Source: Lactobacillaceae bacterium (GTDB lineage: Bacteria; Bacillota; Bacilli; Lactobacillales; Lactobacillaceae). Taken from it: a stretch of 55,966 nt of DNA. A program made the position numbers and the translations under genes. The stretch is taken from positions 1 to 55,966 of the forward strand of contig JAITQG010000028.1 of the NCBI GenBank assembly GCA_031289015.1, given 5' to 3'. Of this stretch, positions 4,941 through 33,700 are shown piece by piece (position 1 is the first letter of the stretch; each line of letters opens with the position of its first letter). Below the pieces are notes generated by a model that was given only the letters and a program-made list of their open reading frames with translations, ran no database searches and was not told the DNA's origin.

Positions 4941-5125
4941 TAAACTTATACAGTATTTAGGATGGTTTAGAAGCCTGGATTATACGAAAATGTTAAATTC
5001 TACACAATTCATAGAGTTATCAAGGGTTAGTCACAGTTTTTAACTACTTAACTTAGTAGAATTGAAAATATAACTAAAACTGGGATAACTGGCTTTAATA
5101 TTCCTCAGGATCAGGGGTGACACAA

Positions 5126-11100: not shown

Positions 11101-14100
11101 GGCAGCCAGTGCAGCAAGTACCGCTCAAAATGAAAGTAGTCTGGCTTCAAGTGCCCAAACAATAGCCAGTTCAGCGGCCACGGCGGCCAGTTCAGCTAAT
11201 TTGATGGCCAGTTCGGCGGCCTCAGCCAGCGACATGGAAACGGCTAGTTCATATGCGACCGTTGCTTCTGAACAAGCATCAACGGCTTCGAGTGCGGCTG
11301 ATACGGCCATGACGGCATCAACGGCGGCTTCGGTGGCTGATAGTATTGCGAACAGTGCAGCCAATGTGGCGGCTAGTCTCGCAACTAGTGATGCCAATAG
11401 TTCCGCTTCGACTGCAGCAAGTAATGCGGTGGTTAGTGCCAGTGATGCCAGTGGCGACAGTACGGATGCATCAACAGCTGCAAGTGAAGCTGGGTCAACC
11501 GCGAATGTCTATGCCAATGATTCAACGATTTCAACAGCGGCCTCGACAGCTTCAAGTGCTGCTAACGAGGCGGCTAGTGCGGCATCAACTGCCTCAAGTG
11601 CTAGTTCAATCGCCAGTGCAGCAGCGTCAATTGCTAGTTCAGCGAATACAGCTGGTTCAACTGCTGCTTCAGCTGGGCAAACTAGTTTGGCACAATCGTA
11701 TGCAACGACGGCTTCACAAGCAGCCTCGATGGCCAATACGGCGACCTCAACGGCAAGTAGTGCGGCCACAGTTGCCTCAACCGCCAACAGTACGGCGCAA
11801 AGTGCTAATTCAGTTGCGGCTTCACAAGCAGCGATTGATAGTGCGGCCTCTGCTGCGGCCGGATCAACGGGCACAACAGCCACATCAACAGCGAGTGATG
11901 CTAAGAGGACAAATAGTGCGGCCAGTGCAGCCTCGTCATCGGCTAATTTGGCGAGTGCGGCGGCTGGAATTACTAGTTCAGCGGTAACGGCATATCCAAG
12001 TGATGCGGCGATTGCGTCTGATAATGCCACGGCGGTTTCAGCTGCGAGCGCGGCCAGTTCGGCAGCGAGTGATGCAGCGGTTGCTAAGAGTGCGGCGGCA
12101 GCGGCAAATTCAACGGCTAAATCAGCAGCCAGCGCGGCTTCAAGTGCGGCGGCTGTCGGTGATTTAACAACGGCTAATAATTTGGCAAGTACCGCTAGTT
12201 CAGCGGCGGCCGTGGCTTCAAGTGCGGCGGCCCAAGCAACTACGGATGCAGCTACGGCTTCAACCGCAGCATCAGCGGCTATCACGGCGGCAGGGGATGC
12301 TCAAGCCCATGCGGCAGCTAGTGATGCGTCATTGGTAGCGACGACTGATGCAGAAGCAACAAGTATTGCGGCTGGTTTGGCTGCGACGGCCAGTGATGCC
12401 ACGAGCCAAGATGAAACCAATGCCAGTGTAGCAGCCTCAACTGCGGCAAGTATTGCTAGTGAAAATGCGGGCGATAGTGCCATTTCAACCGCTGCTAGTG
12501 TTGCTGCATCAGCTGCGACGGTGGCTTCAACCGCGAATGATACAGCTTCATCGGCAACAGCTACGGCTAACGCTGATTATGCTGCAGCTAGTTCGGCGGC
12601 CAGTCAAGCATCAAGTGCGGCAGCAGCTGGTAACGTGACAGCAGCCCAGTCGTATGCAACAATTGCCAGTGCCGCGGCTAGTGACGCCACCAGTGCAGCG
12701 AGTGTTGCCCAAGCCGCCCAACAAACGGCTGATACAGCGGCAAGCACAGCTTCAAGTGCGGCTTCGACAGCAGCGGCAGATTCGTTGGCAAATTCGATTG
12801 CTGCTTCAATTGCCGCCATGCAGAGTGCAGCTAATGCAGCGGCTACATCGGCTGGTGATACAGCGACTTCAACGGCCAACGATGCCACGACGACTAGCAC
12901 AGCCGCGAGTGAGGCTAAGTCATCAGCGGTGATTGCTGATTCAGCTGCGCAAGCGACGAGTTCAGCTGCAACGGCATATCCAAGTGATGCGGCGATTACG
13001 AGTGATAACACGACGGCTACATCGGCCGCCAGTGTTGCCAATTCGGCTGCTAGTGATGCCGCGTTGGCATCAACAGCCGCATCTCAAGCGGATGCCACGG
13101 CTAAATCAGCTGCTGCCGCCGCTTCAAGTGCGGCAGCCAAGGGCGATTTAGCAGATGCCCAAACTTATGCTTCAACCGCCAGTTCAGCGGCGGCCGTGGC
13201 TTCTAGTGCGGCAGCTCAAGCGACGACAGATGCTGCAACGGCATCGAGTGCAGCTGCGGTAGCTTCAACCGCCGCAGCTGACGCCAAATCACACGCGGCA
13301 GCTAGTGATGCGGCCAAGGCGGCGTCAAGTTCAGCAAATGCCGCAGATACCGCAGCAACCACGGCTAGTGCGGCGACTTCAACGGCTAGTGCGAGTGCTA
13401 CCACTGCGCAATCTTTGGCGGATGCAACTGCAAGTGTCGCAGATGCTAATCCAAATGATAGTGGTATTGTGGCCGCTGCAAGTACCGCCGCCAGCGCAGC
13501 AAGTACGGCAATTTCGGAAGCTGCCGTAGCTTCATCGGCAACAGCTTTAGCAAATGCTGATGATGCAACCGCTAGTTCTGCGGCCAGCGCGGCGGCAAGT
13601 GCAGCTGCAAACGGCGATACGGCGACGGCTCAATCCTATGCAACAGTTGCCAGTGTAGCAGCCAGTGCAGCTTCGAGTGCAGCCGCGGTGGCTAGTCAAG
13701 CCCAAAATGCGGCTTCAACGGCCACTAGTGCAGCCAATAGCGCCTTAGCGGATGCCCAAGCCCAATCAACTGCCGATGCCAATGCGAGTGCCGCGGCAGA
13801 TGCAGCCACTAACATCGTTGCATCCGATGCTAGCCAGGCTTCAATAGCGGCTTCATATGCGGCGACGGCTCAATCAGCCGCGAGTGTCGCTAGTGCAGCT
13901 AATACGGTGGCCAGTCAAGCGGCCAATACGTATGCAAACGATTCGGCCTTAGCATCAACCGCTCAAGTTGCCAGTGTTGCTAACAGTACTGCTCAGTCGG
14001 CATCCTCGGTTGCCACTAGTGAAGCAGCCAAGGCAGCCAGTGCCATGTCGGCGGCTAGTTCGTATGCAATTGCGGCTAGTCAAGCAGTTGCAAATGATAA

Positions 14101-14782
14101 TCCAAGTGCCGCTGCCTCATATGCAGCCGCCGCGACTTCATTAGCTAATGTAGCCAGTGATGCGACGTCAATTGCTGCCAGTGCCGCTAGTGTCGCCACA
14201 AGTGCGGCCCAAGTAGCCCAAAGTGCAGCCAATGATGCGATTGCTGAAGCGGCCAATGCAGCCGCGCAAATGGCTAGTGAGGCAGCTGCAGCCAATGCGG
14301 AAGCGCTCCTTGATACAGCCACGCTAATGACGGCCGTGCAACAAGTTAATACCGCGGTGACAACTGGCGATATGGCCACGTTGGAAACGGCCGCCACGCA
14401 GGTCTTGGAGACGGTGCAAACCTTTGTCAGCCAAGTGGTGACGCCAGCAACCGTCGAGGCTAGCACGACAAATGCGAGTGACTCGACAGATGCAAGTGCA
14501 GCGCCTACAACTGCAGCTACTGCAGATACGCAGACGGGAACTGATAAGTACATTTCAACGCCATTGACCAGTGCTGATCCAACGGTTATCGAAGCCAGCG
14601 GTATTCCCGATGGAGCCATGACTAAAGTCAATGACCAACCAGCTAAAGTGGGTTGGCAACCACTGGCTTCAGCTGTCTCAATTGCTGAGTTAATGGCTGG
14701 CATAGCAGTTTACTTCACAGTTTGTCGAAAACATCCGTTAACTGACATCGGTAATAACACGCCAAAGAGCCAATCTAAGTAA
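5126..14782 (+). CDS. Giant KxYKxGKxW-signal surface protein: lectin-like domain plus Ala/Ser repeats
   Basis: About 3218 aa. Residues 26-34 carry the KxYKxGKxW signature followed by a hydrophobic signal peptide. This signal type is linked to long glycosylated adhesins, some exported by accessory SecA2/SecY2. A helical region follows (about 80-320), then an L-type (legume-like) lectin-like domain at about 350-590 with FMGFIVKP, NELAVGVD and the hydrophobic-strand pattern of SraP-type lectins. Beta-rich MucBP-like domains with VNYTGLPAG run to about 1015. The region 1020-3060 is almost only Ala, Ser, Thr and Asp in 13 units. A final hydrophobic stretch (about 3178-3196, ending before CRKH) could anchor it. 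There is no LPXTG motif. I chose the ATG at 5126 because AGGGGTGA sits five bases upstream; a GTG at 5117 adds three residues. A carbohydrate-binding adhesin is the likely role; no export or glycosylation genes are nearby. Confidence 0.88.
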   Translation: MHEKDKNHKEIDNGRFDISQEKEHKKMYKAGKHWVAAGLTVLTMLAAGEIYESTSVQASGAHEPDTEFDVSMPTLTSTAGIKAVVASDAAQSAADKTQAAANAIVGPVQTEALVPGGTTTATKGATTKTTAATQYSVADFEALSLVQANAYMNATVEQAQDNKDDMAEIYDQSNTMADKSATDTIVRNSAIAALHQHQLQELNAIKANNVEMLHATTAKERAQLMAANQWILQNMQTEISQAYVMLNEDKGGVDQAIVAKAQAAYDQLKLPSGTNGYLSAYGDLIINANTGALYNAALVSIQAQGLTNSFRNIVDPTTALAGGDSMTVAGTGTGTNGHTYADDTQTEIDNDFQIAGTAVQGNWAANAGPNATGSGQWYTLTNGSSQTGSATFNKGMDLTQAWSMSGSVSANVGGGGTSLDFMGFIVKPAGQAYGGNGNDHAIAGEPNELAVGVDAYNNNTLDSASKDGISVGGWSTDASGTQTMGNQSGTTNQYGGILGIGATNTGGAAVGTDGTTNNYITMSYNPSTRTVTWTITYNTYTGSNTTATAASSVTGTYVVPSTVTALDVGLVGTNGDITASATGSISNFSYTAQTANVAVNYTGLPAGTLANSTINAEVGADVSVNGSATNNYTAPPVPGYHVSSVTPLTDDEVTNGTNTITVAYVADVQTRQTVETGPGAQTFNPVNGTTGATINAAVSAKAGYYFSATSAGSGITGSIAADGLSATIKGTFDNTSNGTATTDSQIQTVGFTTAASVQTQTVTVTYPAGITAPSMTGFTSSSVTNSDGTTTVTYSRNSTTGTDFSAVALPVEAGYTAQLDGSTATSLADQATDSTANGNATSDTAAQTHTVTYTADTQTATTTFTDADAASSTTGNVGTLTTSGPTASAVSAGTVSTTVDGASTLSDAATNLEAAGFSVSDSTAAASLAAGNFDNNDTVNQTADVALAHKTVTINIVDPTGAIINTVTEDLANVYYYGTASAFTATGNYDATKYTVVSDDTGNISGSSADGAVYTVTLMYNVSSAASAASSTATATASMVSAASASNATAQSDAAIAASEAANYPNNSAVSAANSAASSAASTAASLAAAGSAAGTTTASLAALASSAASAATSAAAAGDSSDATSYANMASSAATAASSAASGAMVLVVAAEAAATTAASSAAQAAVQAAAKDADSTASTNADSAASDATQAATNASAASSAASLASGAASAYANNADITSAATAASTAASTASSAAVAASTANSTASSAASVADSYAVLANAATNLSDAKSYADAASTAAATASTATATASTANATASTANVAAQSATNAVSSLVASVSDSAAASSAMVASAAASSAASEAAAASTAGSTAASQANAYPGDADLQSSASLAISAATTANTASTAASTATSTATSAASVAAADDALASSAAAAGNTAIASAYATAGSTAASIAASAAVAASTANSTASAANAIAQSAASDAASDATADSIAASQAGVASSAATAASSFATNASESASQATSQSTIASSAAGVAQSAADAYQSDAQIAAANSAANSYNAAADSAAADASSAASVASSAASAANIDKANASSAAAVGDEELASSYASQAASEAALATTAASQAVADAAAAITANSNAASAANTATVYAASNASSDATSSATIASSTATEATTAASTASTASKSAAKAASAYPSDTALASAATTASSAATLASSAASVATSANTLAASAASQANEDYALASVAAATGDTAAATSYATAASNAAALASSAASTASSADAIAMTANATATSAGSAAASMATADSAAAMTASGSQDVASSAATDATTAAAAADAASSSAALAASAAAITQSAASAYADDASLADQNSTATLAASGATSNAAAATTAATDAQTAASAAMSAASAAASAAAAGDSSAATTYASTAASQAAIAASAAADATSNASSAADDAAMAVSAAQDAASGAAKDAGSYAKSSATVANSAASAAASAAADAAKVAAVVASEAANYASDTALSDAASTAASAASTAQNESSLASSAQTIASSAATAASSANLMASSAASASDMETASSYATVASEQASTASSAADTAMTASTAASVADSIANSAANVAASLATSDANSSASTAASNAVVSASDASGDSTDASTAASEAGSTANVYANDSTISTAASTASSAANEAASAASTASSASSIASAAASIASSANTAGSTAASAGQTSLAQSYATTASQAASMANTATSTASSAATVASTANSTAQSANSVAASQAAIDSAASAAAGSTGTTATSTASDAKRTNSAASAASSSANLASAAAGITSSAVTAYPSDAAIASDNATAVSAASAASSAASDAAVAKSAAAAANSTAKSAASAASSAAAVGDLTTANNLASTASSAAAVASSAAAQATTDAATASTAASAAITAAGDAQAHAAASDASLVATTDAEATSIAAGLAATASDATSQDETNASVAASTAASIASENAGDSAISTAASVAASAATVASTANDTASSATATANADYAAASSAASQASSAAAAGNVTAAQSYATIASAAASDATSAASVAQAAQQTADTAASTASSAASTAAADSLANSIAASIAAMQSAANAAATSAGDTATSTANDATTTSTAASEAKSSAVIADSAAQATSSAATAYPSDAAITSDNTTATSAASVANSAASDAALASTAASQADATAKSAAAAASSAAAKGDLADAQTYASTASSAAAVASSAAAQATTDAATASSAAAVASTAAADAKSHAAASDAAKAASSSANAADTAATTASAATSTASASATTAQSLADATASVADANPNDSGIVAAASTAASAASTAISEAAVASSATALANADDATASSAASAAASAAANGDTATAQSYATVASVAASAASSAAAVASQAQNAASTATSAANSALADAQAQSTADANASAAADAATNIVASDASQASIAASYAATAQSAASVASAANTVASQAANTYANDSALASTAQVASVANSTAQSASSVATSEAAKAASAMSAASSYAIAASQAVANDNPSAAASYAAAATSLANVASDATSIAASAASVATSAAQVAQSAANDAIAEAANAAAQMASEAAAANAEALLDTATLMTAVQQVNTAVTTGDMATLETAATQVLETVQTFVSQVVTPATVEASTTNASDSTDASAAPTTAATADTQTGTDKYISTPLTSADPTVIEASGIPDGAMTKVNDQPAKVGWQPLASAVSIAELMAGIAVYFTVCRKHPLTDIGNNTPKSQSK
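8309..14110 (+). repeat. 13 tandem protein-coding units of about 468 bp
   Basis: Each unit opens with a motif of the form AYPSDxAIxxA (also AYANDS, AYQSDA, ANPNDS). These start near 8309, 8762, 9200, 9684, 10131, 10614, 11061, 11507, 11990, 12460, 12974, 13446 and 13928. Roughly 70 residues later each unit has a second motif of the form GDxxxAxSYAxxAS. Spacings run from 437 to 514 bp and cluster near 447 and 483 (149 and 161 aa). The units are diverged at DNA level, so this is an old expansion with at least one younger duplication. Confidence 0.85.
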
Positions 14783-20377: not shown

Positions 20378-21730
20378 ATGAAAGTTGTTAAGTTTGGTGG
20401 CTCATCACTCGCTGATGGCGCCCACATCCAACAGGTTTATGACATTGTGACCAGTGATCCGGACCGCCAAATCGTGGTGGTCTCAGCCCCTGGTAAGCGC
20501 CACAAGGGTGATACGAAAGTTACTGACCACTTATTAGAATATGCCAAGCACACGATTGCTGATGTGGATACGAGTGAAGATGTGAGTTTGATCAAGGCAC
20601 GCTATCACGCGATTGGGTCGTATTTTGAATTGCCCGCAGCTGTGATGGCCAAGCTTGATAAACAAATCGAGCAGTTGGCGCAAAAACATTATCCGTCATA
20701 TGATTATCTATATGCAGCATTTGCGGCGCATGGTGAGTGGTTAAATGCGCAAATTGTGGCGGCGGTCTTTAATCAATTAGGCACACCAGCACGGTTTGTC
20801 GATCCCAAGGAAGCGGGCATGATCGTCGATGATGTCGCGCGCGCTGCGACATTGTTAGAAGCCAGTTATGAGCAATTGAGCCAACTTGAAACGGGTAATG
20901 AAATTTTGATTTTCCCTGGTTTCTTTGGTTATACGCAGGCCGGCAACATTGCGACCTTTTCTCGCGGTGGTTCTGACATCACAGGAGCAATTTTGGCGCG
21001 GGCGGTGAATGCCGATTTGTATGAAAATTTCACCGATGTGAGTGCGATTTATGCCGTTGATCCCAAAATCATCGAGCACCCAGCGGCGATTGAACGCATG
21101 ACGTATGACGAAATGCGTGAATTGTCATACGCGGGCTTTGCCGTCTTTCATGATGATGCGATTATTCCCGCTATCCAAGGAGGGATTCGCATCAATGTAA
21201 AAAACACCAATGATCCAAGTGCAGCGGGGACGTTAATCGTGCCACCAACTGAGGTTGCAAATGTGCATAGTGTCACGGGGATTGCTAATTCAAACCGGTT
21301 TGCGGCGTTGTACTTACATCGCTACTTGTTGAATAAGGAAGTTGGCTTTACTTGGAAGATTTTGTCGATTCTAAAACGCCATCAGATTTCATATGAGCAT
21401 ATGCCATCTGGAATTGATGATTTGACGATTATTTTTGACAAATCACTGATGACCCAACACCAAATCGATGCGATGATGGCCGATATTGCTGAGGAAATTA
21501 AGCCGGATACGTTGAAGTGGATTCCCAGCTACGGCATCATCATGGTCGTGGGTGAGGGGATGCGCCATCGGGTCGGGGCCTTTACTGATATTGTCACACC
21601 ATTACGCGCGCAAGGAATTAGCTTGCAGATGGTCAATCAAGGGGCAAGTGAAATTTCGATTATGCTTGGCATTCAACCCGAAGTTGCCGATCAAGCAGTT
21701 CGTGCAATTTATCAAAGTATGTTTGAATAG
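20378..21730 (+). CDS. lysC: Aspartate kinase
   Basis: A 450-aa monofunctional aspartokinase, the first step of the aspartate amino-acid family. KFGGSSLAD at residues 5-13 is the signature, FSRGGSDITGAILARAV is the second nucleotide/aspartate-binding block, and tandem ACT-like domains fill residues 310-450. The symbol is by analogy; feedback specificity (lysine or threonine) cannot be read. Placement after thrB suggests threonine control. The last 23 codons plus terminator have a diverged second copy at 26730, on the far side of the bacteriocin island. Confidence 0.94.
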   Translation: MKVVKFGGSSLADGAHIQQVYDIVTSDPDRQIVVVSAPGKRHKGDTKVTDHLLEYAKHTIADVDTSEDVSLIKARYHAIGSYFELPAAVMAKLDKQIEQLAQKHYPSYDYLYAAFAAHGEWLNAQIVAAVFNQLGTPARFVDPKEAGMIVDDVARAATLLEASYEQLSQLETGNEILIFPGFFGYTQAGNIATFSRGGSDITGAILARAVNADLYENFTDVSAIYAVDPKIIEHPAAIERMTYDEMRELSYAGFAVFHDDAIIPAIQGGIRINVKNTNDPSAAGTLIVPPTEVANVHSVTGIANSNRFAALYLHRYLLNKEVGFTWKILSILKRHQISYEHMPSGIDDLTIIFDKSLMTQHQIDAMMADIAEEIKPDTLKWIPSYGIIMVVGEGMRHRVGAFTDIVTPLRAQGISLQMVNQGASEISIMLGIQPEVADQAVRAIYQSMFE

Positions 21731-21785
21731 AAAAAACCGTGTGAGGCGCAGGCTTCACACGGTTTTTTGATTAGCGAGGAAATTC
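21662..21785 (+). repeat. Left copy of the duplicated aspartokinase 3' end
   Basis: This segment covers the last 23 codons of lysC, its terminator and about 17 bases beyond. It aligns with 26730-26852 with roughly 13 mismatches and one gap by eye, about 89% identity. The two copies bracket the bacteriocin genes. Confidence 0.9.
21731..21768 (+). terminator. Aspartokinase operon terminator
   Basis: AAAAAACCGTGTGA pairs with TCACACGGTTTTTT around a 10-nt loop. The A-rich 5' flank makes it work on both strands, so it may also serve the convergent TetR gene. Confidence 0.9.
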
Positions 21786-21789
21786 TCTA

Positions 21790-22380
21790 TTAAAATGTAC
21801 AATCGTTAGTTTTCAATAAATCTAAAGCTGAATGGTGCATGAAGACAATAAAATTTTTGGAAAAAGTAGCATAGTTTTCAGGTTGATTAGGTTTTAGCCA
21901 ACAGGAAACAACGGCTATGAATTCAGATACAATAATTTTTGTTAATAAATCTAAATCTAGGTTTGTTTTAAGTTTAGTGGTTGAAATGTATGGTTTAATA
22001 ATGTCGGCGTAACTATTTTCTAAATAATTCCGCCATGATGAATCGGTGAAATCATTTAATAAACAATGTATGTATTCTTTTTTGTCATAGAATTCTGGCA
22101 GCAATTCTTCGGCAAGGAAACTAATAAATGCGTCCTCGTTATACGACTTTCCATTTTCGACAAAGGCCTTTAACTTTTTAGTTGGATCTTCATTGACAAA
22201 GAAATGTAATGCATCAACTATTTCGTCAATGTTTGTATAGTATGTGTGATGGAGCGCTTGCCTAGAAATACCAAGTTCCTTTGCAATGTTTGACATGGTT
22301 AAATCGGATTTTGATGAGCAGCAACTGGCTATTTTACAAAACGCGAGTAGTACACGTTTGTCATTTTTATCGAATTGCAT
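21790..22380 (-). CDS. TetR-family regulator of the bacteriocin island
   Basis: A 196-aa protein. The helix-turn-helix is around residues 28-58 (MSNIAKELGISRQALHHTYY, then a YTNIDEIVDALHFF helix), as in TetR/AcrR proteins; the remainder is an alpha-helical ligand-binding-type domain. The frame extends upstream to a TTG at 22404, but the ATG at 22380 has GGGGAGG at the right distance. It is transcribed away from the bacteriocin precursor gene. A long inverted repeat covers its own -35 and would be the natural operator. Codon use is AT-rich like the rest of the island. Its ligand is unknown. Confidence 0.85.
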   Translation of the reverse strand: MQFDKNDKRVLLAFCKIASCCSSKSDLTMSNIAKELGISRQALHHTYYTNIDEIVDALHFFVNEDPTKKLKAFVENGKSYNEDAFISFLAEELLPEFYDKKEYIHCLLNDFTDSSWRNYLENSYADIIKPYISTTKLKTNLDLDLLTKIIVSEFIAVVSCWLKPNQPENYATFSKNFIVFMHHSALDLLKTNDCTF

Positions 22381-22462
22381 GGATGCCTCCCCTGGACAAA
22401 ACAAATTAACAAGTATTGAATATCGTAATTATAGCACATGATATTAAGTATATATGTCATTA

Positions 22463-22496
22463 ATTCTAGAAATTTAGTTGACATGTGTCAACTAAA
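22463..22496. promoter_or_regulatory. TetR promoter with a 24-bp inverted repeat operator
   Basis: TTTAGTTGACA (22473-22483) and TGTCAACTAAA (22486-22496) form perfect 11-bp arms around TG. Each arm contains TTGACA. On the minus strand TTGACA, 17 bp and TAGAAT (22468-22463) give a strong promoter for the TetR gene. On the plus strand the arm could supply a -35 for the precursor gene, but I see no good -10 at 17 bp. Confidence 0.8.
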
Positions 22497-22617
22497 ACAA
22501 ATGTTTAAATATTAAAATTAATGATACTCTTAATTTGTGATTTAGGAAGATGGATTTGAAAGCTATTGATTTCCAATTTTTCGTTGAATCATAAAATAAT
22601 GGAGGGAGGTAACAAAT

Positions 22618-22809
22618 ATGTTATTGGTAAATCAGTTAGGAATTTCAAAATCGTTAGCTAATACTATTCTTGGTGCAATTGCTGTCGGTAATTTAGCCAG
22701 TTGGGTGTTAGCTTTGGTTCCTGGTCCGGGTTGGGCAACAAAGGCGGCACTTGCAACAGCTGAATTAATTGTGAAGAACTCAGGAAAAGCAGCTGCCATT
22801 GCGTGGTAA
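22618..22809 (+). CDS. Circular bacteriocin precursor, leucocyclicin Q/lactocyclicin Q type
   Basis: A 63-aa hydrophobic peptide. The segment TILGAIAVGNLASW and LALVPGPGWA..KA are, as I recall them, the core of lactocyclicin Q and leucocyclicin Q, circular bacteriocins with a 2-residue leader. Applying that here, ML would be removed and Leu3 joined to Trp63 to give a 61-residue ring. The C-terminal GKAAAIAW fits the aromatic end used for cyclisation. Helical, cationic, saposin-like folding and membrane permeabilisation are known for the family. A strong GGAGGGAGGT site precedes the ATG. The downstream genes match the maturation, export and immunity set of such clusters. The sequence is close to, but does not seem identical with, leucocyclicin Q; exact differences need an alignment. 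Confidence 0.93.
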   Translation: MLLVNQLGISKSLANTILGAIAVGNLASWVLALVPGPGWATKAALATAELIVKNSGKAAAIAW

Positions 22810-22833
22810 AAAGATTTGAATATAAATCTTTTT
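22808..22833 (+). terminator. Hairpin directly after the bacteriocin precursor
   Basis: AAAAAGATTT pairs with AAATCTTTTT around GAATAT, starting inside the stop codon. An AT-only-looking stem with a T-run could be a partial terminator or protect the 3' end of an abundant precursor mRNA. Confidence 0.6.
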
Positions 22834-22834
22834 G

Positions 22835-22900
22835 AACTGAAAAACTTCTGATAACTGTTGATGACATTCACAGATGTAAGAAATTTTTCAGTTTTTATTT
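22835..22900 (+). terminator. Second hairpin between precursor and biosynthetic genes
   Basis: AACTGAAAAA (22835-22844) pairs with TTTTTCAGTT (22884-22893), with an inner TTCT/AGAA pairing, and is followed by TTTATTT. With the preceding hairpin it would make the precursor transcript much more abundant than the downstream genes. Confidence 0.6.
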
Positions 22901-22917
22901 ATTGGGGAGGACAATAA

Positions 22918-23568
22918 ATGAATTTTTTTAAGCAGATATTATTTGCTTTTGGTCATTGTGGACGGACAGATTCAGAAATTAGTAATGTTAAATTAACCAA
23001 GAACTTAATATTGTATAATCTGATAATTTTACTAACAATATTTATTTGTGGTGGGAGATTCTTTTTGGATCACTATTCTGCTACTAGTTTTATTGGATCA
23101 ACTAAAGTACTCCCTGCAATTGTGGTTTTATCATTTTTATTATTTTTTGTTTTATCCATTATCACTATTATCGTCACAATTTTAATATATACGGTAGTTT
23201 TATATATTGTTGGTAAGTACATTTTTAGATGGGAGTTAAGTACCCAAAATATTTTTGGCACGATAGTTTTAGCTTGTTTACCATTTTTATTTGAAAGTAT
23301 TATCAAAATTGTAACTAATATAATGCATTCGAATTCGCAGACGACTATAGGTCCACTCTCCGCTGCATATATAGTTCATTATTTTGGAATTAATAACCAA
23401 TTTATTTTAACTGCTTTATCAGAAATCAATATTTTTTTCGTCTGGTTCATTATCTTGATTTTATTTTCGATAAAAAATGTTTATAAAACTAACTTATCAA
23501 AAGGTATTCAAATAGGTATATGTCTCATACTGTTGACGGTAAATATTTTATTAGGATTTTTAGGATAA
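22918..23568 (+). CDS. Yip1-like multi-span membrane protein of the bacteriocin cluster
   Basis: A 216-aa protein with five or six membrane segments (starting near residues 29, 64, 80, 113, 160 and 195). The arrangement and a conserved-looking YIVGKYIFRWELS stretch resemble Yip1-domain proteins, which I give as a weak family call. A small membrane protein in this position is usual in circular bacteriocin clusters, where it is needed for production or export. GGGGAGG precedes the ATG. It lies six bases before the ABC ATPase gene, so they form one unit. Confidence 0.8.
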   Translation: MNFFKQILFAFGHCGRTDSEISNVKLTKNLILYNLIILLTIFICGGRFFLDHYSATSFIGSTKVLPAIVVLSFLLFFVLSIITIIVTILIYTVVLYIVGKYIFRWELSTQNIFGTIVLACLPFLFESIIKIVTNIMHSNSQTTIGPLSAAYIVHYFGINNQFILTALSEINIFFVWFIILILFSIKNVYKTNLSKGIQIGICLILLTVNILLGFLG

Positions 23569-23574
23569 TTAATA

Positions 23575-24312
23575 ATGACAAAAAAAACAATTCAAATTGA
23601 TAACTTGACTTTAAAGTATGGTGAAAATGTAATTATTGATAGTGTATCGTTTACCTCAATGCCGGGCGATATAATTGGTATTATTGGTGAAAATGGAGCA
23701 GGTAAAACAACACTTTTTAAAGCACTGGTGGGGTTGAAAAATATTTCTTCAGGCGAAGTTAGTTCTTTTGGTACTAGTCTCAAAATAGATGAGGCTAAGT
23801 ATAAACAAAATATTGGCTTTGTTCCAGATTCACCATACATTTTAGAAATGCTGACAGGATATGAATTTCTTAAATTCATATCTAGTATGTGGTCTATAAA
23901 AACAAATTGGGAAGAAATTGATTCCTTAAGCATTAAACTTGGGCTGCATGATCAGCTTGATGAATATCTGATCAATTATTCGTTTGGTATGAAAAAGAAA
24001 ATTTCAATCTTAACAGCGATGATCCATCATCCAAAAATTATTATATTAGATGAACCCTTAAATGGCCTGGACTTTGTTTCTGCGACAAATGTACTGAAAT
24101 TTATTGAATATTTTGCACAAAAAGGCGGTACGGTAATCTATTCTACGCATCAATTAGGAATATTGGCTAAAAATGTGAATAGATTATTTTTGCTAAAAGA
24201 AAACAAAATCATCGATGTTCCTGATATTGATAAAATGCTCAAAGAAAGCAATAGCGAAAATATAGAAGAATATTATATTAATAATATGAGCGATGGTGAA
24301 TATGAAAAATAA
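23575..24312 (+). CDS. ABC transporter ATPase of the bacteriocin cluster
   Basis: A 245-aa ATPase. Walker A is GENGAGKTT (residues 38-46), Walker B with the D-loop is IIILDEPLNGLD (about 155-166), and the H-loop is STHQ. The signature is SFGMKKK rather than LSGGQ, a form common in ABC-2-type and bacteriocin-export/immunity ATPases. It likely pairs with the large membrane protein at 24835 or the DUF95 protein. The gene overlaps the next by 20 bases. The Shine-Dalgarno (AGGAT) is modest, consistent with translational coupling. Confidence 0.93.
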   Translation: MTKKTIQIDNLTLKYGENVIIDSVSFTSMPGDIIGIIGENGAGKTTLFKALVGLKNISSGEVSSFGTSLKIDEAKYKQNIGFVPDSPYILEMLTGYEFLKFISSMWSIKTNWEEIDSLSIKLGLHDQLDEYLINYSFGMKKKISILTAMIHHPKIIILDEPLNGLDFVSATNVLKFIEYFAQKGGTVIYSTHQLGILAKNVNRLFLLKENKIIDVPDIDKMLKESNSENIEEYYINNMSDGEYEK

Positions 24313-24823
24313 AGCAACATTAATACGAATAATCGTTCTAATTGGAGTTTTTATTATATCTGTACTGATCGGAATATACACTGGGATTAATTTCAATTTT
24401 CATACTGTAACAAATATAAGATCTGATAATGTTGGGTTGCATGGATTTTTTGTATATTTTGTACATAATGGATTATTATTGCTTGTTCCGCTAATTAGTG
24501 TGTTTATATTCGGCATAATTGCTCCCGTGTTTCTTGTATCGCAGGCAGTTGTCATAGGAATATTCGTAGGGGTTTCTATGTATAATGGTCTTGCGCTTTT
24601 GGATATTACTTTAAGAATGAGCCACGGTTTGTTTGAAATTCCAGCAATGATCTTGGCAACCTGGATAGGGACTTTTTGTGTATATTCATATACTGAACCA
24701 TTTAGCAATTTTTGGAAAAGAGTGCGTACAAAAATATTAATTGTGTATATTTTAATAGGTATATCCGCGATATGTGAGGCATATTTGACGCCAGTTTTGA
24801 TTCAAGTGTTAAACCATGGTTAG
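24293..24823 (+). CDS. DUF95/SpoIIM-family membrane protein (LcyD-like)
   Basis: A 176-aa membrane protein with about five segments. The block SHGLFEIPAMILATWIG is the hallmark of the SpoIIM/DUF95 family. A DUF95 protein of the leucocyclicin Q cluster (LcyD) has, as I recall, been shown to act in bacteriocin secretion and self-protection, and almost all circular bacteriocin clusters carry one. The start is either the ATG at 24293 or the one at 24302; both overlap the ATPase gene end and neither has a clear SD. Confidence 0.88.
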   Translation: MVNMKNKATLIRIIVLIGVFIISVLIGIYTGINFNFHTVTNIRSDNVGLHGFFVYFVHNGLLLLVPLISVFIFGIIAPVFLVSQAVVIGIFVGVSMYNGLALLDITLRMSHGLFEIPAMILATWIGTFCVYSYTEPFSNFWKRVRTKILIVYILIGISAICEAYLTPVLIQVLNHG

Positions 24824-24834
24824 GAATAAACAAG

Positions 24835-26532
24835 ATGAATATAAAAAAAATATTTTTTTGGCTCAGGTGGAAATTAGTTAATCGATATCGCGAATTTTAT
24901 TCGCGGACAAAAATATTTTCACGATTAGATAAAAGTGATGCATTGGGTTTGCTTTTATTTACTAATTTATTTATTACGGCATTTGTAATAGTTGTTTTAT
25001 ATCTATGTTATATTTTTTTTGTTCATTTTATTGGCACAAATACAACTTCTGACATAGCGACTGTCTTAATCATCCTATCTTTAATACCTGATTTAGGACT
25101 GGCTAAAGATGCCTGGCAATGGAGTGCATTTTCGTCTCGAAATCATGAATTTTTAATATACGGGACACCATTAACAAAAGCGCAAGCAAATTTTTATAGC
25201 AACCTAGAAGGATTGTCATTTCAACTTACAAACTATATATTTGGGTATTTTATAATTTATTCTTTCTTTTTGACCATTATGGGTATCCCGATTTATATGT
25301 CAATGATGGTTACAATTATTCTAGTGCTTTATAAACTAAGTACAACGGTATTTCTATCTAACGTAATAGGTTACTTTACAACAAAGGTGAAGCGGCTTTC
25401 AAGAATGATGTACCTACTAATGAGACACATACTATTGAGTATAGTAGTGTATGTCGTTGCCTTCAAATTAGGTCACATATTAGGAATTAAAGGAAATACT
25501 ATTGTATTCGATATAAAGAAAAGTAATGCCTCTAATGTTTGGAACCAATTAGTTATCAATGCCAAGCAAATGATTATTTCGTTATTGGATAACTTATTTG
25601 GCCCGAACACTTTTATAGGTAACTTGGTAGTTAAAGCAATTAAATTTAACAATTTTAGTTTGATCGAATTATTGGTAAGTGTTTTATCTATTAGTATTTT
25701 TTTGGCTTTAGTGACGATACCAATAGCGAAGTACACGCTATCTGATTTGTACAATGAAAATATTTTACCCGCTTCAAAACAGCGACGTCAGAAATCGTTG
25801 TCCTCCATTCTTATTGACATAGGAATCCGCATTCCAACCAGTGATTTTGGAATTCCTGTTTTTATGGGGACGTGGTCTATGTGGGCACAGTTCGGGGCAC
25901 TGATCGGATTAAATACTGGTTTTTATGCGAATGACTATATCAAATGGATTTTGATTTTACAGCTAGGCTTGCACATCAAGGAAGCTATGGGGAGCTGTGT
26001 GGGTGCGTTTCCAGAAATCTTTTCTTTTGATTCGAGTGGTCGAATAACTGAATTATATATTTTGGCAGACAATTCATTAAAAAGCGTGGTAAGAATAAAA
26101 TTAAATATAATACGAATGTACATGCTGCCTAGTACGATTATAAAATATATTATAATCGTGATTTCCATTCATAATTATATTTACGTGGGAATAATCACGT
26201 TATTAATCGTGATTATGTTAATCATCTATCCGGGATTTTTACTCTATCCATCGGTAGCTTATCCGGTTGTGCACCAGGAAAATATAAAATTAACTCAAAA
26301 TATAGATCAGGGTGGTTTGTGGAAATTAGCAACAATGGCTAGTAAATTAATGGATAGTGGGATTTTCATCTTACTAGTATTTGCTTTTGCAGGGTACATT
26401 AATCCGTTTTTATCGATTACTTTATCTTTAATAATATTTGTTGCGTCGGTTCTAGTGATTAATTGGGGAGTAAATAAATTGTTTAATGTTGTCACTGATA
26501 AACGGGTATTTGTAGGGCAACTAGAAAGTTGA
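24835..26532 (+). CDS. Large membrane protein of the bacteriocin cluster
   Basis: A 565-aa protein with about ten hydrophobic segments and a basic N-terminus (MNIKKIFFWLRWKLVNRYRE). I see no enzymatic motif. Its size, topology and place after ATPase and DUF95 genes match the large membrane component of circular bacteriocin clusters, proposed to take part in maturation/cyclisation or to be the permease partner of the ATPase. Cyclisation itself has no established enzyme in this family, and this is one of the candidates. AGGAATAA lies upstream of the ATG. Confidence 0.82.
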   Translation: MNIKKIFFWLRWKLVNRYREFYSRTKIFSRLDKSDALGLLLFTNLFITAFVIVVLYLCYIFFVHFIGTNTTSDIATVLIILSLIPDLGLAKDAWQWSAFSSRNHEFLIYGTPLTKAQANFYSNLEGLSFQLTNYIFGYFIIYSFFLTIMGIPIYMSMMVTIILVLYKLSTTVFLSNVIGYFTTKVKRLSRMMYLLMRHILLSIVVYVVAFKLGHILGIKGNTIVFDIKKSNASNVWNQLVINAKQMIISLLDNLFGPNTFIGNLVVKAIKFNNFSLIELLVSVLSISIFLALVTIPIAKYTLSDLYNENILPASKQRRQKSLSSILIDIGIRIPTSDFGIPVFMGTWSMWAQFGALIGLNTGFYANDYIKWILILQLGLHIKEAMGSCVGAFPEIFSFDSSGRITELYILADNSLKSVVRIKLNIIRMYMLPSTIIKYIIIVISIHNYIYVGIITLLIVIMLIIYPGFLLYPSVAYPVVHQENIKLTQNIDQGGLWKLATMASKLMDSGIFILLVFAFAGYINPFLSITLSLIIFVASVLVINWGVNKLFNVVTDKRVFVGQLES

Positions 26533-26543
26533 GAAATATATGT

Positions 26544-26693
26544 ATGTTTAAAAGAGTGCTGTGTACAGTTTTGGCAATATTAATATTGGCATTAACTTTA
26601 TTTAATAGAGATTTGGGGTTTCATTTAAAAACCATTGAGAGTGGTCTTTTATTATTAGTTTCATTGGGACTATTTTATTTTGCCAGAAAATAA
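26544..26693 (+). CDS. Small two-span peptide, probable circular bacteriocin immunity protein
   Basis: A 49-aa frame running from the second ATG after the large membrane protein to a TAA at 26691. It begins MFKRVLCTVLAILI and ends LGLFYFARK. It has two hydrophobic helices (about 5-20 and 34-46), a basic N-terminus and a basic C-terminal end. Circular bacteriocin clusters usually end with a 45-60 aa, hydrophobic, cationic immunity peptide of exactly this layout, so I infer that role. The start codon is 11 bases after the preceding stop; the SD is weak, so translation may be coupled. An earlier ATG at 26540 meets a stop after three codons and is not used. Confidence 0.75.
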   Translation: MFKRVLCTVLAILILALTLFNRDLGFHLKTIESGLLLLVSLGLFYFARK

Positions 26694-26729
26694 AGGATAA
26701 CAGGAATTCGTAAGTCGTTAAGTGCATTC

Positions 26730-26798
26730 ATGCTTGGAATTCAGCCCGGAGTTGCCGAACAAGCGGTACGTGCGAGTTATCAAAGTGTGTTTGAATAG
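26730..26798 (+). pseudogene. Orphan 3' fragment of an aspartokinase gene
   Basis: These 23 codons read MLGIQPGVAEQAVRASYQSV and end FE-stop, against MLGIQPEVADQAVRAIYQSM plus FE-stop at the end of lysC. No upstream part of the gene is present; before 26720 similarity is lost in the spacer that follows the immunity peptide. It is the right-hand boundary mark of the island. Confidence 0.9.
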
Positions 26799-26804
26799 AA
26801 AAAT

Positions 26805-26836
26805 CCGTGTGAGGCGTTGCCTTCACACGGCTTTTT
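26805..26836 (+). terminator. Copied terminator ending the bacteriocin operon
   Basis: CCGTGTGA and TCACACGG form the stem, followed by CTTTTT. It is the duplicated lysC terminator and would now end the bacteriocin transcript. Confidence 0.8.
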
Positions 26837-26973
26837 GATTAGCGGAAAATTCACCGCTGGTAGTTTAAAAAGATTAATTCATTTCTTCTTTGTTCTCTAT
26901 AAGTTTTCTAGTTTTGTTTTAAAAGTGACCATAAAACTGTTCGTCTGTATATTCATCAAAAATTTGGGTTTCA

Positions 26974-27022
26974 AAGCTTCCCTAAATGCTCCAATATAGA
27001 TGTTTAGGGGAGCTTCGTTTTT
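26974..27022 (+). terminator. Hairpin with T-run in the long intergenic gap
   Basis: AAGCTTCCCTAAA pairs with TTTAGGGGAGCTT (one G-U), loop 16 nt, then CGTTTTTG. From 26853 to 27213 I see no gene: only this hairpin, a G12 tract and a probable promoter for the next surface gene. Confidence 0.6.
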
Positions 27023-27123
27023 GCCGAAAAATGTAGTAATATTGTAGGTTTTTTGCTTTTTTGAGATATATAGGTAATTAAATCCATAAAAGCATACTTC
27101 GCACATAGAATCACAAAAAATTC

Positions 27124-27135
27124 GGGGGGGGGGGG
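27124..27135 (+). repeat. G12 homopolymer upstream of a surface-protein gene
   Basis: Twelve consecutive G lie 78 bases before the start codon at 27214 and just upstream of a weak promoter (TTGATA 27143-27148, 17 bp, TAGTTA, with a nearby TATAAA at 27170). Homopolymers like this are prone to slippage. The exact length in a single assembly may be a sequencing artefact. Confidence 0.8.
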
Positions 27136-27213
27136 TACAGCATTGATAGATATTATTACAAATGCTAGTTATAAAATATAGGTGAGTACATATAGAGTCA
27201 GGAGGTTTTTGCA

Positions 27214-28470
27214 ATGAAAATACATAAATTAAGTTATCGCCTCGTCCGCGCCTTGGTGTTATTTGTAGGCGTGCTGGGCGCGATTACATTGTTTACCAAT
27301 AGGTCGTTTACCGGCGGACAAACTTTAGCTAGTGCGGCTGAAAGTGCTTTGAGTTATGACTCAGGTACAAAAACATTAACAGTCGGACCGGGGGGTGAAT
27401 TGCCAACTAATTTTAGAACTATATCCAATGTTATGTCAGCTGAGACAATTGTGTTTACGAGTAATGAGACAAGTGGTAAAGTCGTAGTTCCTCAGGATTC
27501 GACTAACTTGTTTTATCGCCTATATAATGTGAAGCTATTCCAAGGAATGCAAAATCTTGATACATCCCAAGTCACAGACATGAATGCCATGTTCTCTGAA
27601 TGTACTAGTTTAACTCAACTTGATTTGAGCGTGTTTGACACATCCAAAGTCACAAACATGAATACCATGTTCTATGGTTGTACAAGTTTAACCCAACTTG
27701 ATTTGAGCGGGTTTGACACATCCGAAGTAGTATCCATGGCTTACATGTTCTATAATTGTAATGCTTTAACCCAACTTGATTTGAGGGGGTTTAACACATC
27801 CAAAGTCACGCATATGGTAAGTATGTTTCTTACTACACCCGCTTTGTGGAAGCTTACACTTGGGCCTGCGTGCATTATTAATACAACGACATACCTAGCC
27901 AATCCGGTTCCTAACACACCCTTCCAACAAAACTTCCGCAACGACACCGTAAGTTCACCCCTGTGGTTAAATGAGCGAACAGGTGTTGAATATGCGGCCG
28001 CTGATATTCCGGCCGGCCATGCATTGGGTACATCGGATACATATATTTGGCAAGGGCATGTAAATACGACTGTTGAATACATTGTTCAACCAAGCTACAC
28101 CATCACGATTCCAGCCACGATCACGATTCTAAGTACGACAGTGGCGGGTACTGGCAATGTTACTTTGAGTGCATATCCCAAAGTGCCGTATGAGGAACGC
28201 TTTATTCATATTTCAGCAACATCAGGGAGCACGAATTGGCATTTGACCACAACCGGTGATGCTACTGGCGCCGAGTACGACTTTGCTGCAGAAGATGGCG
28301 TGAATTTGAAGACCGGAGATGATCTTGTGATTGAAGCTGACGGAGAAGCGCCGGCGACAGTTAAAACAATTTCTGCTTCGTTGACCGATAACGCGCATAA
28401 GTTTAAGTATGCAGGGACTTACCAGGACATTGTAACGTTTACGATTGAAACCGCCGCTTCTGCTTCTTAG
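27214..28470 (+). CDS. BspA-type leucine-rich-repeat surface protein
   Basis: A 418-aa secreted protein. The signal peptide covers about residues 1-43 (basic MKIHKLSYRLVRALVL, hydrophobic core, cleavage near ASAAES). Residues about 105-210 hold four 24-residue BspA/DUF285 repeats of the form MxxMFxxCxxLTxLDLSxFDTSxV. The C-terminal third starts with a YTITIPATITI strand and ends in a KFKYAGTYQDIVTFTIE module, shared with the gene at 32126. No LPXTG, WxL motif or C-terminal membrane segment is evident, so attachment to the wall is uncertain. Adhesion is the usual suggestion for BspA repeats. CAGGAGGT precedes the ATG. A G12 tract lies upstream. Confidence 0.88.
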   Translation: MKIHKLSYRLVRALVLFVGVLGAITLFTNRSFTGGQTLASAAESALSYDSGTKTLTVGPGGELPTNFRTISNVMSAETIVFTSNETSGKVVVPQDSTNLFYRLYNVKLFQGMQNLDTSQVTDMNAMFSECTSLTQLDLSVFDTSKVTNMNTMFYGCTSLTQLDLSGFDTSEVVSMAYMFYNCNALTQLDLRGFNTSKVTHMVSMFLTTPALWKLTLGPACIINTTTYLANPVPNTPFQQNFRNDTVSSPLWLNERTGVEYAAADIPAGHALGTSDTYIWQGHVNTTVEYIVQPSYTITIPATITILSTTVAGTGNVTLSAYPKVPYEERFIHISATSGSTNWHLTTTGDATGAEYDFAAEDGVNLKTGDDLVIEADGEAPATVKTISASLTDNAHKFKYAGTYQDIVTFTIETAASAS

Positions 28471-32101: not shown

Positions 32102-32125
32102 AATACATAGAAAGATACCATTATG

Positions 32126-33700
32126 ATGAAAATACATAACTTAAAGCAGCGCCTTGGCCACGCATTGTTGCTAATCGTCGCCGTAGTTGGTGCTATTACG
32201 TTGTTTACAAATTTGTCGTTTACTGGTGGGCCAGCCAAAGTGAGTGCCGCTGAGTGTGTGTTGACATATGATGCACCTACGAAAACGTTGACGGTTGAAC
32301 CAGGCGATTTTCCAACAGACTTCAAATTCAAGGCCAACGTATCAACAGCTGAAACAATTGTGTTTGTGAGTGAATCAAATAGTGCTGATAAAGTGATAGC
32401 CCCAGTTAATTGTCAAAGTTTGTTTGCCAATCTAACGAATCTCAAACATTTTAAGGGGTTGCAAAATTTTGATACCAAACATGTTACGAATATGGATAGC
32501 ATGTTTTTGGGCTGTACTAAGCTAGAAATCCTTAACTTAAACACATTTGATACTGCCAAGGTGACCCAGATGCAGTATATGTTTTCACAATGTAGTAAAT
32601 TAACGAGCTTAAATGTGCGTGGTTTTGACACAGCTGAGGTGTTGAACATGCGAAATATGTTTGATGGGTGTGTTGCGCTACGGCATTTAGATTTGACGGC
32701 ATTTGAGACGGCCAAAGTAACGACCATGGAAGGGTTGTTTATGGATTGTAGCAGTTTAACAACATTGGATTTGAGTGGGTTTGATACTTCAAGTGTTGAG
32801 AGTATGCAATCGATGTTTGAAGGCACGAGTAATCTAAGCAAATTGGATTTAACGGCATTTAATACTGAGAACGTTTGGACTATGAAATATATGTTCAATC
32901 AGTCTGGGGTTTCAAGCCTGGACTTGAGTTCGTTTAATACGGCAAAAGTAACTACTATGTTTTGGATGTTTTGTCAGTGTACAAACTTAAAAACCCTAGA
33001 TTTAAGCTCATTTAATACGAGTAAAGTTGCTACTACAAATGGTATGACGCTAATGTTTGGTAGTACAGACGCATTGTGGAAGTTAACCCTTGGCTCAGCG
33101 TTTACATTTGTTGATCCAAATCAACCAGGGCTAGGGAATCCAATCCTTGATACGGTGTTCAACTATAATTTGAAAGTTAATTCGACTAAGTGGTTACATA
33201 AGACGGGTGGTTCTGATTTGAGTCCGATTGGTGATTATGAGTATGTTGCCAACGAAATTGTGATGAATAAAGCCTTAGGGACGACTGACACGTATATTTG
33301 GCAAGGTGATTTAGGCGACACCACGACCAAATATGTCGTGCAACCAAGCTATACGATCACAATTCCAGCAACGCTTAGTATGTCAAAGGACACACCCGTA
33401 GCGACAGGGGCGATTGAGCTGGGGGCCTACCCCAAGTTGCCGTACTCAGCGCACACGATTAGCGTGACGGAGAGTTCGACTAATCATTGGGTTTTAACAA
33501 CGCCGGGTGGTGATAATGGACCTCGGTATGATTTAATAAATGATGAACCAAACGGTGAAATTTTATTCACGGCAGATGGTGAACAAGGCGCCCAAGTTAA
33601 AAATATTTACGCGCAATTGCAAGATAGTGCTCACCAATTCCAATATGCTGGAGTGTATTCAGATCATATTAATTTCACAGTGCAAATTGTTGAAGAATAA
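32126..33700 (+). CDS. BspA-type leucine-rich-repeat surface protein, larger paralog
   Basis: About 524 aa. The N-terminus MKIHNLKQRLGHALLLIV and the following AITLFTNLSFTGG closely match the protein at 27214, giving the same signal peptide. About nine BspA/DUF285 repeats (for example MDSMFLGCTKLEILNLNTFD) occupy residues 115-310, more than twice as many as in its paralog. The C-terminal YTITIPATLSM strand and QFQYAGVYSDHINFTV module are shared. Start is ATG 32123 or 32126; I prefer 32126 by alignment. No strong SD is visible (GAAAGATACC only), and its nearest promoter-like DNA is upstream of the remnant, so expression may depend on read-through. Confidence 0.87.
   Translation: MKIHNLKQRLGHALLLIVAVVGAITLFTNLSFTGGPAKVSAAECVLTYDAPTKTLTVEPGDFPTDFKFKANVSTAETIVFVSESNSADKVIAPVNCQSLFANLTNLKHFKGLQNFDTKHVTNMDSMFLGCTKLEILNLNTFDTAKVTQMQYMFSQCSKLTSLNVRGFDTAEVLNMRNMFDGCVALRHLDLTAFETAKVTTMEGLFMDCSSLTTLDLSGFDTSSVESMQSMFEGTSNLSKLDLTAFNTENVWTMKYMFNQSGVSSLDLSSFNTAKVTTMFWMFCQCTNLKTLDLSSFNTSKVATTNGMTLMFGSTDALWKLTLGSAFTFVDPNQPGLGNPILDTVFNYNLKVNSTKWLHKTGGSDLSPIGDYEYVANEIVMNKALGTTDTYIWQGDLGDTTTKYVVQPSYTITIPATLSMSKDTPVATGAIELGAYPKLPYSAHTISVTESSTNHWVLTTPGGDNGPRYDLINDEPNGEILFTADGEQGAQVKNIYAQLQDSAHQFQYAGVYSDHINFTVQIVEE

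Follow-up and report, generated by a model that had tools for sequence, protein, structure and literature searches.

What does the AT-rich island on contig JAITQG010000028.1 of a Lactobacillaceae bacterium (assembly GCA_031289015.1) encode, and how did it arrive there? The window, i.e. the whole stretch of DNA that was analysed, has a length of 55,966 nucleotides and is one entire contig of a genome of 2.08 Mb in 73 contigs. The neighbours of the island are an aspartokinase gene at 20378-21730 on the left and, on the right, a DUF285 surface-protein gene that starts at 27214; it contains seven genes in all, a minus-strand TetR-family gene and six divergent genes. With high confidence, we read it as an acquired complete cluster for a circular (head-to-tail) bacteriocin that would be a natural variant of leucocyclicin Q, and the strain very probably makes, exports and resists this ring peptide. 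The seven genes are the following:

21790..22380, minus strand: TetR-family regulator of 196 amino acids (aa), start ATG at 22380 (mechanical start TTG at 22404)
22618..22809, plus strand: predicted circular bacteriocin precursor of 63 aa, with leader ML and core L3-W63 of 61 aa
22918..23568, plus strand: six-span membrane protein of 216 aa, candidate for the role of the Yip1-domain protein in related clusters
23575..24312, plus strand: ABC transporter ATPase of 245 aa (PF00005, E 7.9e-27)
24302..24823, plus strand: SpoIIM/DUF95 membrane protein of 173 aa, or 176 aa from the ATG at 24293 (PF01944, E 5.2e-13, over the cut-off)
24835..26532, plus strand: ten-span membrane protein of 565 aa, by size, topology and cluster membership the likely membrane half of an exporter
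26544..26693, plus strand: cationic hydrophobic peptide of 49 aa, or 54 aa from the TTG at 26529, putative immunity peptide

The G+C content of the island is 31.1%, compared to 46.6% in the left and 44.4% in the right flank, and the third-position G+C of its genes is 22-31%, compared to 47-52% for hom, thrB, lysC and thrC and 41% for the DUF285 gene. An earlier annotation made from the letters alone, the sequence-only reading, had placed an AT-rich island with these genes at 21785..26730. Each gene that it named is an open frame at the place given, and the location stood, while the edges had to be corrected to about 21786-26729, because a direct repeat described below sets them. The frames are intact, most of them with clear ribosome sites. 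All basic gene classes of circular bacteriocin clusters, which an excerpt of PMC6131525 gives as precursor, small immunity peptide, ATPase plus membrane protein, and DUF95 protein, have a candidate in the island. The SpoIIM match, the ABC_tran match and a shuffle test of the core (0/1000) argue against chance.

The core of the precursor agrees with leucocyclicin Q at 57 of 61 positions, including both joined ends (L first, W last), behind a leader that is likewise two residues long, and with lactocyclicin Q at 44 of 61. The precursor had been attributed to the leucocyclicin/lactocyclicin group with residues slightly different from leucocyclicin Q, and this is borne out by four substitutions (L28V, T48L, H52N and E53S) and by a leader ML instead of MF. 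The letters used for the two known peptides were checked by mass, grand average of hydropathy (GRAVY) and leader length. The computed values, 6115.22 Da and 0.744 for leucocyclicin Q and 6060.15 Da and 0.826 for lactocyclicin Q, compare with 6115.16 and 0.744, and 6060.09 and 0.826, as printed in Table 1 of PMC6131525, and with masses of 6115.23 and 6060.16 and leaders MF and MK as printed in the part of PMC10028692 consulted; such agreement in composition supports the letters without proving their order. For both peptides, an excerpt of PMC4155820 describes a leader of two residues, ring closure between L3 and W63 and four predicted helices. The predicted L3-W63 ring of the window has a computed mass of 6048.17 Da, and the linear form 6066.18 Da.

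Related loci provided a second line of comparison. The DUF95 protein used as bait matched 37 of 398 genomes of the class, its own included; 20 loci were among the matches listed, 19 of them from other genomes, and an ATPase match lay nearby in five of these 19. Wider DNA was taken for the three loci with a frame of 245-254 aa beside DUF95 (L126, L134 and L135, extended to L144-L146), and two with frames of 391-395 aa were left out. Each of L144-L146 encodes a precursor, a Yip1-matching protein, a membrane protein of 551-574 aa, an ATPase and a DUF95 protein, in this order, plus one small hydrophobic protein before or after them. Their precursors match PF09221 over the cut-off (E 4.4e-8, 9.3e-21 and 1.3e-20), and their proteins in the Yip1 role match Pfam Yip1 with E 8.5e-20 (over the cut-off) and 1.9e-4 and 7e-4 (under it). 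These gene kinds all recur in the window, which keeps the ATPase-DUF95 pair but has the large protein placed after it. A further locus from a genome of the class (L151) carries a four-span protein with a DUF95-like HGIFE motif, a large membrane protein and two successive ATPases.

The sequence-only reading had proposed aligning the precursor with leucocyclicin Q, lactocyclicin Q and other circular bacteriocins. Beyond the two closest peptides, global alignments of the core reached z values of 9.6 for a core that is presumably amylocyclicin-like, 9.2 for NKR-5-3B and 7.0 for a third core, with 0 of 1000 shuffles attaining each score. In the PDB, a profile of four precursors, that of the window and those of the three relatives, reached five entries with E under 0.01, each of them a circular bacteriocin (NKR-5-3B, two AS-48 sequences, carnocyclin A and plantacyclin B21AG), with E-values driven partly by the rows of the three relatives.

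The calls of an ABC ATPase and a DUF95 protein were both confirmed by the family models listed above. Their identities to the counterparts in the three related clusters are 32-33% for the ATPase and 22-25% for the DUF95 protein, with HG.FE.P...L in common and HG.FE.P present in all four. The 216-aa protein has six hydrophobic windows by hydropathy; the label 'Yip1-like' was not sustained, as no match to Pfam Yip1 (PF04893) was found up to E 10. The 565-aa protein, on its size, place and topology, is likely the membrane half of the exporter. 'Ten-span' agrees with 10 non-overlapping hydropathy windows at a threshold of 1.6 and disagrees with 17 at 1.2, so the span count is rough. Similarly, the 49-aa peptide (net charge +4), described as two-span, has one clear span and a second that appears only at a lower threshold; it gave no significant family match.

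Several results weigh against the reading as a circular bacteriocin cluster. The precursor falls under the curated cut-offs of PF09221 (E 3.9e-4, 21.0 bits versus 23.6) and TIGR03651 (E 4.1e-4, 20.6 bits versus 30.7), and the single sequence is weak alone against the PDB (NKR-5-3B E 0.034, AS-48 E 2.3). Comparison by hhalign with the counterparts in related clusters gave a non-significant E of 0.055 for the 216-aa protein, and E 0.054 (three proteins) and 0.31 (five proteins) for the ten-span protein, which we did not count as homology; controls with another membrane protein (0.4) and a patatin-type protein (0.83) were not composition-matched. When 398 class genomes were searched with a profile of the three large-membrane-protein counterparts, 7 had a match, including its three source genomes, and the window was not matched. 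The roles of the six-span and ten-span proteins are thus assigned by place, size and topology and not by significant sequence similarity. In the two family models, leucocyclicin Q itself also falls short, with 21.4 of 23.6 bits for PF09221 and 23.7 of 30.7 for TIGR03651; lactocyclicin Q had no match to either model at E 0.1. Pfam and NCBIfam models thus score the subgroup, leucocyclicin Q included, under their curated cut-offs, and genome surveys based on these models may count too few clusters of this type.

Candidate control elements were found between the divergent genes (22405-22617) and behind the precursor gene:

22473..22496, no strand: 24-bp palindrome TTTAGTTGACA-TG-TGTCAACTAAA with 11-nt arms that are 100% complementary
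22810..22894, plus strand: two RNA hairpins between the precursor and the biosynthesis genes, the long one at 22834-22894, followed by UUAUUUAUU

The divergent TetR gene was correctly called in presence and orientation, and its start is most likely the ATG at 22380, with AGGGGAGG ahead of it, rather than the TTG at 22404. The protein matches PF14278 over the cut-off (E 1.8e-6) and PF00440 under it (E 0.0012). The palindrome is likely the operator of this TetR-type regulator; its inner 22 bp had no second site in the 2.08-Mb genome at up to 3 mismatches (0/100 window shuffles). A minus-strand TTGACA plus TAGAAT (22491-22463, 11/12 consensus) overlaps the palindrome, which fits autoregulation, in a region whose consensus promoter matches, 27 in number, do not exceed the 31.5 expected by chance. 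The long hairpin pairs 22835-22863 with 22865-22893, and the RNA 22810-22917 folds at -26.8 kcal/mol (z -4.23, 0/200 shuffles). We infer that it may act as a leaky terminator or a stabiliser that raises the precursor over the machinery.

One alternative is that the cluster is intact yet silent, or serves immunity only, as a remnant kept against leucocyclicin-type peptides of neighbours. The island is acquired and AT-rich, its precursor was found in one of 397 family genomes, namely its own, and not in the other 396 searched, and the sole listed promoter match before the precursor gene reaches only 9/12 (22570-22597), such matches being no commoner than in shuffles. Set against this are the intact frames and ribosome sites, the retention of a single-target palindrome and a strong hairpin, and a core that retains 57 of 61 leucocyclicin Q residues, and we consider a silent or immunity-only cluster improbable.

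For a working circular bacteriocin cluster, functions, ring closure, fold and regulation can be proposed as follows. The TetR-type protein would bind the 24-bp palindrome and control its own gene and the precursor promoter. Transcription of the operon would begin at the precursor gene, and the hairpin behind it would stop or protect most transcripts, so that the precursor exceeds the membrane machinery. The leader ML would be cut off and Leu3 joined to Trp63, yielding a 61-residue ring of about 6048 Da with saposin-like helices. To our knowledge, the ring-closing protein is not known for the whole class of circular bacteriocins; the six-span protein may share in maturation. Export would proceed by the ATPase, the ten-span and the SpoIIM proteins, and immunity would come from the 49-aa peptide, helped by SpoIIM and the pump.

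As for the arrival of the island, its two edges are formed by copies of one sequence:

21662..21785, plus strand: left direct repeat, with the 3' end of the aspartokinase gene, its stop codon and a terminator-like inverted repeat (21731-21768)
26730..26852, plus strand: right direct repeat, in which the aspartokinase 3' end recurs in diverged form, including a terminator-like site (26805-26830)

The copies align over 115 nt at 88% and over 124 nt at 87% (E 1.5e-37), and these repeats at both edges mark an insertion. The five synonymous and four non-synonymous base changes in the coding part would fit a copy that is no longer under selection or that came from a relative. Two terminator-like sites were listed in 21600-27300, in the right repeat copy and inside the ten-span gene; with 2.6 expected, their number is not above chance, and it is by its place that the site in the right copy probably ends the bacteriocin operon. 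A bolder view, which we hold to be possible but rather unlikely, is that of a plug-in cassette for the aspartokinase 3' end, whose insertion would rebuild the end of the host gene and its terminator on one side, while the second copy would become the terminator of the operon itself. Such a cassette, lacking an integrase, would enter by a single crossover of a circle carrying the lysC end or by a recombinase acting in trans.

Alternatively, the repeat could be a local duplication and the AT-rich genes ancestral. In favour of this, by the frame list and the family models, no island frame resembles an integrase or transposase, and an empty site was not found in the genomes in which it was sought, Leuconostoc fallax and G397; the G+C of 31% versus 44-47%, the repeats at both edges and the absence of the precursor from the other family genomes searched speak for an insertion, as does the hom-thrB-lysC region of L. 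fallax. This species has the closest named aspartokinase (70%), in the order thrC-hom-thrB-lysC, and the 7 kb that follow its lysC contain none of the island proteins at E 1e-10. An ancestral origin is quite improbable. In the genus relative G397, a genome that is 66% complete, no repeat copy was found in the stretch examined (L154, G397:C14:1-14000). There, the matches to aspartokinase, thrB and lacI-like genes are broken into pieces of roughly 60 residues that follow one another in reverse along a single strand, with 48-77% identity for lysC, which looks like a scrambled record and not biology. The genome of the window has two aspartokinase genes, 20378-21730 and G000:C71:9083-10435, about 60% identical, and the one in the window (hom-thrB-lysC) shares 70% with L. 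fallax but at best 60% with any full-length copy in the genus relatives that were searched.

Searches for the island elsewhere were largely negative. A peptide-pattern search of the genome contigs matched 461 stretches, none of them confirmed. The PF09221 search of 60 relatives gave no match and is uninformative, because the precursor of the window itself escaped it as well and no control matched. The ten-span protein was found in 2 of 395 genomes of the order including its own; in the other, the match (E 8.9e-4) covers 43 residues of a frame that is interrupted by a stop. Plasmid records had no match to the precursor or the DUF285 region and one 101-base stretch to the island, and megablast gave one 62-base stretch for window positions 1-25000 and none for 30000-54900. 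The only match to a viral contig (L040), which covers 21 precursor residues on a contig whose long frames look phage-like, was rejected as chance.

Other features of the window lie outside the island. A run of 12 G (27124-27135) stands about 80 bases before the DUF285/PARCEL surface-protein gene, and eight further genes of the family have a similar upstream element with G runs of 4, 7, 7, 8, 8, 9, 10 and 10 and conserved surrounding bases (contigs C25, C5, C17, C33, C10 (two), C3 and C18). For a lactic acid bacterium, these elements have the look of a family of phase-variable promoters, with assembly error in run length being possible. No SSU rRNA was found in the genome. It contains 43 DUF285 stretches, and a second DUF285 surface-protein gene (32123-33700) lies 2 kb beyond thrC. 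A surface protein of 3221 aa with a KxYKxGKxW signal is encoded at 5117-14782, between valyl-tRNA synthetase and Mur-ligase-type genes; with a G+C of 51-59% over 7-14 kb, its region is the second composition outlier of the window.

The predicted peptide appears to be a previously unreported natural sequence of the leucocyclicin Q kind, within an already known kind of circular bacteriocin; in the titles and abstract openings of the literature on 'leucocyclicin', this variant was not reported among the matches listed. It would bring to three the natural sequences of the leucocyclicin/lactocyclicin subgroup, known from two strains according to the review excerpts consulted, and leucocyclicin Q is one of 12 singletons in a published network, according to an excerpt of PMC8659200. 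If the peptide is active, the four substitutions mark sites at which other residues are tolerated, and a testable operator and hairpin are added to the picture of the subgroup. A product that stays linear, in the manner of leaderless bacteriocins with the same fold, and leaves the cell through the ABC pump is very improbable, since leader length and both ring-closing residues match peptides reported to be circular and a SpoIIM/DUF95 gene is present, even though excerpts report TetR regulation for leaderless lacticin Q (PMC6131525) and saposin-like features for both classes (PMC6072434).

Among known systems, the closest is leucocyclicin Q of Leuconostoc mesenteroides TK41401 (GenBank AB795997.1, accession as given in PMC7132975), which shares the 61-residue core (57 identical positions), the two-residue leader and the presence of cluster genes for a DUF95 protein and a regulator, reported as LcyD and LcyR in excerpts of PMC4155820, PMC6131525 and PMC11409674; it differs by the four substitutions, the leader (ML in the window, not MF) and the mass (6048.2 Da in the window versus 6115.2 Da). 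Lactocyclicin Q of Lactococcus sp. QU 12, for which an excerpt of PMC6131525 reports the structural gene alone, also has a 61-residue core, 44 residues of which are identical, and the same TILGAIAVGNLASWVLALVPGPGWA middle, but is separated from the core of the window by 17 substitutions. The enterocin NKR-5-3B/amylocyclicin type (L145 and L146) resembles the island in gene content, with a precursor, a Yip1-class protein, a large membrane protein, an ATPase followed by DUF95 and a small peptide; in contrast to the island, its precursor, 33% identical to that of the window, has a long leader, and its large membrane protein lies before the ATPase, whereas that of the window lies after DUF95.

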